Notes under the pieces: generated by a model
Told to the model about the DNA's origin: nothing
Databases searched by the model: none
The model's input: only the letters and a program-made list of their open reading frames with translations
Translations under genes and position numbers: made by a program
From: Leptospiraceae bacterium
Lineage (GTDB): Bacteria > Spirochaetota > Leptospiria > Leptospirales > Leptospiraceae
Direction: 5' to 3'
Assembly (NCBI GenBank): GCA_015075105.1
Contig: JABTUZ010000001.1
Coordinates: forward strand, 310,001 to 374,000
DNA: 64,000 bases
Shown: in pieces, positions 41,280-44,872 of the stretch
Numbering within the stretch: the stretch's first letter is position 1
Layout: each line of letters begins with the position of its first letter

Positions 41280-41654
41280 GTGAATATGAATGTTCAAATT
41301 TTTGTTGTATTAGTTGTTATCGGAATGATTACAGGTGTCATGGGAGGATTACTCGGAATTGGTGGAGCTTTGATCTTAATTCCCTCATTAGTATTTTTTT
41401 TAGGTTTGAACCAACAAGAAGCGATAGGGACAAGTCTTGCAGTATTATTGCCACCCATCGGAATATTTGCAGCATACAATTATTATAAAGCAGGGTACGT
41501 AAAAATAAATTATGCGATGGTACTTGCAGTTACCTTTATGATTGGAAGTTATCTCTCTTCTAAGTTTGCAATTGGAATACCGGAGAGTATAATTAGAAAA
41601 ATTTTTAGTGTCTTATTGATTGTTATTTCTCTAAAAATCTTCTTCTCGAAATAG
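41280..41654 (+). CDS. TSUP/TauE-SafE family, half-size permease
   Basis: 124 residues, four membrane helices. MITGVMGGLLGIGGALILIPSL is the TSUP repeat signature and GTSLAVLLPPIG the second conserved element. Full-length TSUP proteins have two such halves (about 250 residues); here only one is present, so two copies would need to pair. The family exports sulfite, sulfoacetate or related anions. Start GTG 41280 (AGGA 7 bases upstream) or ATG 41286. It lies 36 bp before the rhodanese-thioredoxin gene. Confidence 0.85.
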   Translation: MNMNVQIFVVLVVIGMITGVMGGLLGIGGALILIPSLVFFLGLNQQEAIGTSLAVLLPPIGIFAAYNYYKAGYVKINYAMVLAVTFMIGSYLSSKFAIGIPESIIRKIFSVLLIVISLKIFFSK

Positions 41655-41690
41655 ACTGTAGGGAAAATATTGCAAATAAGGGTGACAATT

Positions 41691-42425
41691 ATGAAAATAA
41701 CAACATTCTCTATAGCTGTATTATTTTTTTTGAATAATTGCAGTGAAGCTAAAAATCAAAATGCAATGAATTTGATACACAACGTGAATGCAATAGAGTT
41801 TAATAATCTTATTCAGTTGGACAATGGGATTGTTTTGGATGTCAGAACTCCGGAAGAAGTTGCTCAAGGAAAAATCAGAAATGCAAGTGTCGTGAACTTT
41901 TATGATAAGGACTTCGAGAAAAAAATTAATTTAATTCAAAAAGACAAACCGATTTATATCTATTGCAGATCGGGAAGTAGAAGTTTGAATGCGTCAAAGA
42001 TTTTGGAGAAGAATGGGTTTACTAAAATTTACAACCTAAGCGGTGGGATTTCAAGCTGGGTGGGTAATGGTTTTTCAGTGGAGAAACCGACACAAATCCA
42101 AGACGACAAAATACAAGAGATGTCACTTGCCGAATTTAATAAAATTATCGAAACAAAAAAATCTGTACTCGTTGACTTTCATACTAAATGGTGTTCTCCC
42201 TGCATTCAAATGGCACCTATCGTAGATGAAGTTTCAAAAGAATACCAAAAGAATTTGACTGTAATTAGAATCGACATTGATAAGAGCAAAGAACTTGAAG
42301 AGGCATACAATATTCAAGGAGTTCCTGTATTTTATATTTTTCGGAATAGAAAAAAAGAATGGGATCATAGCGGACTTATCTCTAAAAAGAATTTAATCGC
42401 AGCAATTGAACGAGTCACTAAATAA
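41691..42425 (+). CDS. Lipoprotein with rhodanese and thioredoxin domains
   Basis: About 244 residues from ATG 41691. Lipobox FFLNNC (Cys17) follows a signal peptide. A rhodanese domain (about 35-130) has Cys92 in YCRSGSRS, and a thioredoxin domain (about 145-244) has WCSPC (Cys168, Cys171). This fused, membrane-anchored sulfurtransferase plus reductase, beside a TSUP permease, suggests periplasmic sulfur-compound handling such as sulfane sulfur transfer and reduction. The pairing is inference; both active sites look intact. AAGGGTGA lies just before the chosen ATG. Confidence 0.88.
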   Translation: MKITTFSIAVLFFLNNCSEAKNQNAMNLIHNVNAIEFNNLIQLDNGIVLDVRTPEEVAQGKIRNASVVNFYDKDFEKKINLIQKDKPIYIYCRSGSRSLNASKILEKNGFTKIYNLSGGISSWVGNGFSVEKPTQIQDDKIQEMSLAEFNKIIETKKSVLVDFHTKWCSPCIQMAPIVDEVSKEYQKNLTVIRIDIDKSKELEEAYNIQGVPVFYIFRNRKKEWDHSGLISKKNLIAAIERVTK

Positions 42426-42518
42426 TTATTTTTTAAATCTCAAAGAAAGAGAATATTCACTTAGAAAAAATATTTAACGGTAAATATATTTGTCGGGGCT
42501 TTCTATTTTTTACACTAC

Positions 42519-42551
42519 TGTAATTTACTTGTAATCTGATTGTATTCTAAT
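42519..42551 (+). promoter_or_regulatory. Three 11-bp direct repeats, Pho-box-like
   Basis: TGTAAT, TGTAAT and TGTATT occur at 42519, 42530 and 42541, each separated by 5 bases, giving an exact 11-bp period. This is the geometry of PhoB boxes (one helical turn repeats). A possible -10 (TATAAA, near 42568-42573) lies about 20 bp further and no -35 is evident, as for activator-dependent pho promoters. The next gene is the porin, 47 bp downstream. Confidence 0.55.
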
Positions 42552-42597
42552 TAAGTCATCGTAGGAATATAAAAATCATAAATAAGGGATTACGAAT

Positions 42598-44301
42598 ATG
42601 ATATTAAACAGGAATTCAAGGAATTTTTTTGTAATTCTAATACTTTTTATTTTTCCGGTAATTAAAATTTTAGGACAAACAAAGCTGATAGATACGAAAG
42701 AAGAGAAAAAAGGAAATCTTCCAAAAAATAGTTTAGAGATTTATGAAGACACAGAAACCGGTCAAGTATTTACAAAGCCGGGCACAAATCGGAAAAAAAT
42801 ACGCATTATCTCTGATTCAGAAATTGAAAAGATAGAGCCATTCCCGAATACTTTAGTCAATCGCCCGTCCAATTTAAAAAATGAAAAACTGACAATTGTG
42901 GGAAGACTTCAAGTACACGGAGTCTCAGGGCAAATTCAATCTGCTTACAACAATGGTCACAGGGATTTTAATTCAGTGGATTGGTCGATTAGAAGAGCAA
43001 GGTTGGGCTTTATGTATGCGGGTGATAAGTGGTGGGGAACTACTATAAACCTCAGGTTAGAAAATGCTTTCGCATCGCCTTATTTGACCCCGGGCAGCAC
43101 AACCTCTGTCTGTGCCGACTCTACATGCTCTACAAAAGCAAACGCACTCACAAGTCAGCCAAGTTTAAAAGATGCGAGAGGGCTTATACAAAATGCTTTT
43201 ATTTATGTAAACCTTCCTTTTCATATCAGGGTAAGTGTTGGTATGATTAATCTACAATTCAATCGAGAGATGCTCATGTCGTCTTCTAATTTTATTGCAT
43301 TAGAAAGAACCTTGATCGCAAATGCTTTGCCTCTTTTTGATAATGGGATTTCGTTTCAGTGGATGCCTCTTGCAGATATTCTTGGCAAAAAATATGAAAG
43401 ATATTTGACCTTGTCGGGAATGATTTCTGATGGGCATGGAGGAGGAGGAAATAATGGATTTGGTAGAAGAATTGACACAACGTATTCCAGAAGTGGAACC
43501 GTTCCGGTAATTATTTCTCCATTATATACAGGTAGAATTCAATACAATGTATTTGGTGGACTGATTAATGAAAATGGAAAAGACCTTGGCTGGCAGGAAG
43601 GAGAAGAGATTTTTCAAAGTGAGATGAAATGGTCTATAGGTGCTGCTATTACAGAAACAAAAAACTACAAGGTGATAGGTTCAAATTTCCCAATAGAAGC
43701 TCAGCCAAGAAATATGGAGACATTGCAACTAACGTCCTATCAGGCAAGCCCGGTGGGCGGGACTACGCCAACTTCATCAGCTAACAGTGCTCTTCTAAAC
43801 ACATCTGTTGACTTCACATCTCAGAATACAAAATCCGGTGCAAACTTAGCGAGAGCCAATATGGGTCTTGTTGCACATAATTATGACACTACTTTTACTT
43901 ATAAACACTTCTATCTAAACGGTGCTATATCCTATTTCTCAGGTGCAGCTTCCAATAATATTAGAAGTCATCATATAACAGTTGGTTACAATATTCCTGT
44001 GCTTGGGAAATGGATTATGCCTGTAGCGAGATACGATTTTTTAAAAGCAGATTTTAATAGAGATGGAAATTATTCTCAAAATGAAATATTCAAACTGTAT
44101 TGGGTTGGTTTAAATTTTTTTGGAGATAGACATTTATTTAAAGCACAATTATTTTTTAATGTAATCAAGGACGAATTGGGCACAAACGCATATAGACAAA
44201 GTTATGATTTGAATAACAACCAAATTTTTTTCCAATTGCAGGGAACTTTTTGGACAGGAGTTACTCCACCGGATAAATTAGAAACGAGAGTAGAAAGATG
44301 A
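42598..44301 (+). CDS. Outer-membrane porin, OprO/OprP-like
   Basis: 567 residues. A signal peptide (about 1-27) and a 60-residue polar N-terminal region precede a beta-barrel pattern of alternating hydrophobic strands (KLTIVGRLQVHGVSGQ, SIRRARLGFMYAGDKWWGTT, YTGRIQYNVFG) ending in FFQLQGTFWTG. RRARLGF and the general strand order resemble phosphate-selective porins O and P. A lipoprotein gene follows 22 bp later and may be co-transcribed. Phosphate selectivity is inferred from family likeness and the upstream repeats only. Confidence 0.8.
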   Translation: MILNRNSRNFFVILILFIFPVIKILGQTKLIDTKEEKKGNLPKNSLEIYEDTETGQVFTKPGTNRKKIRIISDSEIEKIEPFPNTLVNRPSNLKNEKLTIVGRLQVHGVSGQIQSAYNNGHRDFNSVDWSIRRARLGFMYAGDKWWGTTINLRLENAFASPYLTPGSTTSVCADSTCSTKANALTSQPSLKDARGLIQNAFIYVNLPFHIRVSVGMINLQFNREMLMSSSNFIALERTLIANALPLFDNGISFQWMPLADILGKKYERYLTLSGMISDGHGGGGNNGFGRRIDTTYSRSGTVPVIISPLYTGRIQYNVFGGLINENGKDLGWQEGEEIFQSEMKWSIGAAITETKNYKVIGSNFPIEAQPRNMETLQLTSYQASPVGGTTPTSSANSALLNTSVDFTSQNTKSGANLARANMGLVAHNYDTTFTYKHFYLNGAISYFSGAASNNIRSHHITVGYNIPVLGKWIMPVARYDFLKADFNRDGNYSQNEIFKLYWVGLNFFGDRHLFKAQLFFNVIKDELGTNAYRQSYDLNNNQIFFQLQGTFWTGVTPPDKLETRVER

Positions 44302-44323: not shown

Positions 44324-44872
44324 ATGAAAAACTATATTCAAAATATTTTTATTTGCACAATCCTTGCTTTGGTTACCAATTGTGCGTACATTCAATCGAA
44401 CAAAGAAGATTCGAGAGGAGCATTGATTTTTTCTATTTTGCAGAACTCTCAAACTAATTTAACAGAGACTTTAAGATCGGTGGTGTATATTGCTAAAGTA
44501 GATCCTGCAACATTTCAAGGGAAATGTGTTGATTCATTTTATGGAGCCATGACGGCTACCAATTACTACGACTTAAATTATAAAGCTCTCATGGATTCTG
44601 TTTCTACAAATCGAGCTTCCGCAGTGGCTAAGGCTTATGCGACATCAAGTAGTTGTAACCATCTTGGATTTTCTGGACTTGGGGCAGAACAAGCAACAGA
44701 CAATAGTGTAAAATTTAAAGCATATTTTTGCGATGCTTCATATTCTGCTTGTTCTGACAATGCGATTGCAGGAAAAATAAACGGGTCATCTATTATCGGT
44801 AAAGGCTCTGATGGTGTGACAAGAGGCCTTGCTTTTGACTGCTCTTCTAGACCAAACGGATTTTGCTTATAA
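44324..44872 (+). CDS. Cys-containing putative lipoprotein
   Basis: 182 residues. Lipobox LVTNC gives Cys20; six or more further Cys (KCVDSF, SSCNHL, YFCDASYSACSD, DCSSRPNGFCL) suggest disulfides in an exported domain. No domain recognised. It follows the porin by 22 bp and so is probably in its operon, perhaps regulated by the same upstream repeats. Confidence 0.65.
   Translation: MKNYIQNIFICTILALVTNCAYIQSNKEDSRGALIFSILQNSQTNLTETLRSVVYIAKVDPATFQGKCVDSFYGAMTATNYYDLNYKALMDSVSTNRASAVAKAYATSSSCNHLGFSGLGAEQATDNSVKFKAYFCDASYSACSDNAIAGKINGSSIIGKGSDGVTRGLAFDCSSRPNGFCL

Follow-up and report, generated by a model that had tools for sequence, protein, structure and literature searches.

In Escherichia coli, the PHO box of phoA consists of two 7-bp direct half-sites separated by a 4-bp spacer, stands in the place of the -35 element and is followed after 10 nt by the -10 element. 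The definition of the PHO box used here was taken from the literature, and its half-site varies between species (PMC4415409). Two other described systems resemble the locus analyzed in this study. The Pseudomonas porins OprO and OprP belong to the Porin_O_P family, and the likeness lies in a porin beside or co-regulated with phosphate genes and in porin homologues that match Porin_O_P. In a leptospire, the HemR hem-box combines an OmpR/PhoB-family regulator with direct repeats of 11-bp period (PMC11426443). No leptospiral Pho regulon was found in the literature searched. The window analyzed, a stretch of 64,000 nt, comprises bases 310001-374000 of contig C1 in a 3.42-Mb Leptospiraceae genome (G000) that is 99.97% complete.

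A phased repeat precedes a porin gene

TGTAAT-N5-TGTAAT-N5-TGTATT was found on the forward strand at 42519-42546 with a period of exactly 11 bp, its six-letter units starting at 42519, 42530 and 42541 (42518-42546 reads C-TGTAAT-TTACT-TGTAAT-CTGAT-TGTATT). Written as 7-bp half-sites, it comprises CTGTAAT (42518-42524), TTGTAAT (42529-42535) and TTGTATT (42540-42546), and it ends 51 bp before the porin ATG. With up to three mismatches allowed, the three-box pattern matched once in the window against 0.09 matches expected from dinucleotide shuffles, and in a pattern search the porin locus was the sole place in the whole genome with the exact pattern. The spacing and this rarity confirm the three helically phased repeats reported in a preliminary description of the window. 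The same two-box precedes the porin orthologues L026 and L027, and a third unit (TAGTAAT) occurs at the porin orthologue of genome G007 too.

The gene that follows encodes an outer-membrane porin of 567 aa (42598-44301, forward strand), with an LA_3150-family lipoprotein gene, assigned by family match, 22 bp downstream on the same strand (44324-44872; 182 codons). The porin had no match of its own in Pfam, NCBIfam or PDB sequence searches and none to Pfam PF07396 (Porin_O_P) above the gathering score; a PDB sequence search with the PHO4-like profile described below was likewise empty. The Porin_O_P cut-off of 20.9 bits was exceeded by one orthologue, L027 (at 22.6 bits), and by five of the six distant homologues. 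Judged from these sequences, the window porin is remotely related to Porin_O_P, and its role as a phosphate channel is putative. Its earlier designation as a phosphate-selective, OprO/P-like porin stands as remote kinship through homologues and not as a direct family match. An AlphaFold model built with five sequences, with a mean pLDDT of 44, was too poor to judge a 16-strand barrel with a phosphate-binding arginine ladder, and its fold matches were general porins, OprO and OprP included. A scan of genome contigs recovered the porin in just four Leptospiraceae MAGs, all of them porins already in the set, and the porin-bearing relatives are named Leptospiraceae MAGs. In each of the five family genomes with the porin, the next gene is lipoprotein-like and belongs to one and the same alignment; by sequence and gene order, the porin is the head of a conserved porin-lipoprotein pair kept in the four other porin-bearing genomes of the family.

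Promoter layout matches that of phoA

A candidate -10-like hexamer, TCTAAT (42546-42551), begins exactly 10 nt past half-site 2, and the G007 porin orthologue has the same hexamer at the same 10-nt spacing. An alternative candidate, TATAAA (42568-42573), lies 21 nt past half-site 3, and a likely ribosome-binding site, AAGGGA (42584-42589), is read from the sequence 8 nt before the ATG, all on the forward strand. When TATAAT-like hexamers with at least four matches, including the A at position 2 and the T at position 6, were counted as -10-like, 10 of 22 sites had one exactly 10 nt past the second half-site, whereas other offsets averaged 1.2 (P about 1e-7 for the peak at 10 nt). The promoter of phoA in E. 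coli MG1655 shows this 7-4-7-10 layout, with CTGTCAT-AAAG-TTGTCAC, 10 nt and TATAGT. The box had been described as replacing a -35 element about 20 bp before the TATAAA hexamer; this distance is right for the third half-site, but the choice of TATAAA as the -10 element may be wrong, because TCTAAT sits at the spacing enriched at related sites and present in phoA. Judged from this peak over the 22 sites, the box takes the place of the -35 element with a -10-like hexamer at fixed spacing, and the porin promoter has two candidate hexamers, neither of them perfect.

The box recurs before phosphate genes in this genome and its relatives

The exact two-box TTGTAAT-N4-TTGTAAT has one site in the 3.42-Mb genome (C1:1107314), 87 bp upstream of a gene whose match to PHO4 (PiT) stays below threshold; 9 of 12 homologues of the encoded protein match PHO4 (best 3e-8). 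Next among the matches listed are the two overlapping pairs before the porin, with one mismatch each. The genome's own phoBR operon has a weak site (10/14). Other repeats were also noticed. Two sequences 974 bp apart, AAGTAATTCCTTTGTAAT / TTGAAATCGAATTGTATT, form a pair present at no fewer than four places on C1 (about 1.02-1.18 Mb), probably a multi-copy element, and in G005 (C118:58970-59968) sites of the TTGTAATTCCGTTGTAGT type recur every 327 bp as a tandem array.

Eight exact two-box sites were detected in eight Leptospiraceae genomes, this one included, compared with two for the reversed-pattern control. They precede PHO4 (this genome, G005 and G006), phoB-phoR (G001 and G003), porin orthologues (G006 and G007) and exbB-exbD (G004). 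Upstream of phoB, site scores were 12-14 of 14 in G001, G002, G003, G004 and G005 and 13 in G006; G007 was left out of this scoring because it had no phoR match at the threshold used. Some box units before phoB in G005 and G006 read TGTCAT, which is the E. coli form. We also inspected forty stretches that surround one-mismatch and related sites; being picked by hand, they give no rate, and about half of their sites fall inside genes, which we took as chance. Near-exact sites, with one mismatch, were found before a PstS gene in G003 (TIGR02136, 177 bits, below the cut-off of 207) and before an OlsB-like gene in G002, where a PHO4 gene is directly next. The low-scoring orthologues were the porins of G005 and G001, PHO4 of G007, G001, G003 and G004, and pstS of G007; the case of the PHO4 gene of G002 is explained by its operon with olsB. 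In that operon (L149, G002:C6:104700-106200) an OlsB-like ornithine-lipid acyltransferase adjoins PHO4 behind the box, likely tying phosphorus-free lipid synthesis to phosphate shortage. In G004 and G005 (L147 and L159), a near-exact box lies 36-46 bp before genes for small PAS-domain-like proteins, with a PAS_9 match in L159.

The exbB-exbD genes follow one-mismatch sites in G001, G002 and G007, and all seven genomes with exbB (L185-L191) have a site with 12-14 matches 55-101 bp before its start, mostly TTGTAAT-N5-TGTAAC, that is, with TGTAAC as the second unit. In G007, the gene order is pstS-pstC-pstA-pstB, a 233-aa ORF, a SpoIIE-type phosphatase and then the porin, the box occupying the gap immediately before the porin. 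The 233-aa ORF (L122:16099-16800) occupies the place of phoU after pstB and has no match to PhoU or any other Pfam family. The same repeat had been expected near other phosphate genes, and it does precede PHO4/PiT-like genes, phoBR, pstS and olsB-PHO4. At pst genes in particular, the repeat was found in relatives (before pstS in G003 and between pstSCAB and the porin in G007), and this genome has neither PhoU nor PstB over the cut-off. The recurrence at phosphate genes supports the proposal, made from sequence, that the porin and the lipoprotein would be under phosphate control.

The motif definition draws in part on four of the sites, and statistical scoring was applied to 17 target promoters outside its definition (250 bp each), of which eight reached at least 12/14 and six at least 13/14 at period 11. 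With periods of 7-10 and 12-18, only 0-3 promoters reached 12, and the matches at period 13 are due to a TTGTAAT within the -10 region. For 104 permuted half-sites, an average of 0.48 promoters scored 12 or above, the high-scoring half-sites being shifted copies of the motif. Control genes reached 12 in 2 of 165 cases and 13 in none (Fisher 4e-8; 8e-5 when the controls are those whose upstream DNA is mostly intergenic). The AT content of the targets (73%) is somewhat higher than that of the controls (68%), which is allowed for by the period and permutation tests.

A candidate regulator of the PhoB type

Two OmpR-type regulators are encoded in this genome. Directly downstream of one of them lies a kinase gene with its best family matches to PnpS and PhoR, and PhoB is the best-scoring family for the regulator itself (248 bits; cut-off 296). 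By these best hits the genome contains a PhoB-PhoR pair, with the profile scores of its PhoB, PhoR and PHO4 proteins all below the curated cut-offs. Aligned with E. coli PhoB, the candidate keeps R193, R201, R203, T217 and R219, while H198 is replaced by N and R200 by K; these residues contact DNA in E. coli PhoB. The second OmpR-type regulator has W in place of R219. Seven of the eight genomes yielded a kinase partner for the PhoB-type regulator.

PhoU was not found in this genome by two models, and PstB was not found over the cut-off; Bacillus subtilis likewise has no PhoU (PMC4415409). We tentatively raise the possibility, which we hold to be somewhat doubtful, that the Pho regulon here is complete without the usual sensor, with PhoR-PhoB controlling a PiT-like carrier and the porin in place of a PstSCAB/PhoU-dependent arrangement, and with relatives adding ExbB-ExbD and so tying TonB-driven uptake to phosphate. 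If this is true, PhoR would need another route for reading phosphate, since neither PstSCAB nor PhoU would be acting. A nearly complete genome with no PhoU and no PstB over the cut-off would be a natural case in which to study phosphate sensing by PhoR.

Alternative explanations

The main rival explanation is that another OmpR-family regulator reads the box, for instance a HemR-like one that controls functions of iron/haem and TonB, for which the phosphate genes would be only part of the targets. It is raised by the exbB sites, present in every genome that has exbB, and by the precedent of L. biflexa HemR, whose binding sites are direct repeats spaced by 11 bp (TGACA-N6-TGACA) and under whose control exbB1/exbD1 stand (PMC11426443); the second OmpR-type regulator of this genome could also be such a reader. 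However, the half-site here is TGTAAT instead of TGACA, a search of the window that allowed up to one mismatch gave no hem-box, and the second regulator does not have the R219 of the PhoB type. The targets of the box moreover form a phosphate set that includes phoBR itself, PHO4, pstS and olsB-PHO4, and we regard this explanation as improbable.

The porin might instead be read through from the promoter of the genes upstream, with the repeat incidental or secondary. Immediately 5' of the porin (41280-42425), the gene of a TauE/SafE-type exporter and that of a rhodanese-thioredoxin fusion form a sulfur-handling pair on the same strand, separated from the porin by a gap of 172 bp in which no terminator-like site was found. 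Relatives, however, keep the porin and the lipoprotein behind other upstream genes (pst in G007), and the two-box is kept 5' of the porins of G006 and G007, which makes read-through improbable as the main explanation. Chance appears still less probable, and indeed very unlikely. An AT-rich genome could yield TGTAAT repeats freely and leave the porin repeat functionless; two-box sites with up to two mismatches are abundant (185 in the genome compared with 54 for the reversed control), and many one-mismatch sites fall inside genes. Exact sites, in contrast, are rare and every one of them precedes phosphate genes or exbBD, and the period, control-gene and -10 spacing tests speak against chance.

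A predicted PHO box of the lineage

Taken together, the repeat very probably represents a lineage-specific PHO box that drives the porin-lipoprotein operon through a PhoB-type regulator, with binding and activation being predictions. The operator would consist of three 7-bp half-sites with the consensus TTGTAAT and an 11-bp period. Under phosphate shortage, the PhoR-like kinase would phosphorylate the PhoB-type response regulator, which would then bind the box head-to-tail and, from the -35 position, activate the porin-lipoprotein operon, which may let more phosphate cross the outer membrane. Further predicted targets of this regulator are the PHO4/PiT-like transporter of the inner membrane, encoded elsewhere in the genome, and, among the relatives, its own operon phoB-phoR, together with pstS, olsB (for ornithine-lipid synthesis) and exbB-exbD. 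Counted against this reading are the low-scoring orthologues, the weak site of the genome's own phoBR operon, the sub-cut-off profile scores of PhoB, PhoR and PHO4, the use of MAGs as relatives, the partial derivation of the motif from four of its sites, and exbB-exbD, which is not a classical Pho gene. Box consensus, target genes and candidate regulator together offer a testable map of the phosphate-shortage response of these spirochaetes.

Comparison with known systems

Compared with OprO and OprP, the window protein has no significant Porin_O_P match, and its phosphate selectivity is putative. HemR differs in its TGACA half-sites and haem genes, and the window has no hem-box with up to one mismatch. 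Of solved structures, mycobacterial RegX3 scored best for the PhoB candidate; RegX3 comes from another lineage and answers to phosphate. The E. coli-type Pho system includes PhoU and PstB, neither of which was found in this genome (PhoU by two models, PstB over the cut-off). Relative to the E. coli PHO box, the half-site is TTGTAAT and not CTGTCAT, and three units are present at this porin. The E. coli CTGTCAT is best read as having its counterpart in TTGTAAT in this lineage, and since the half-site is a species-level feature of PHO boxes and not a defining one, this difference is compatible with membership among them.
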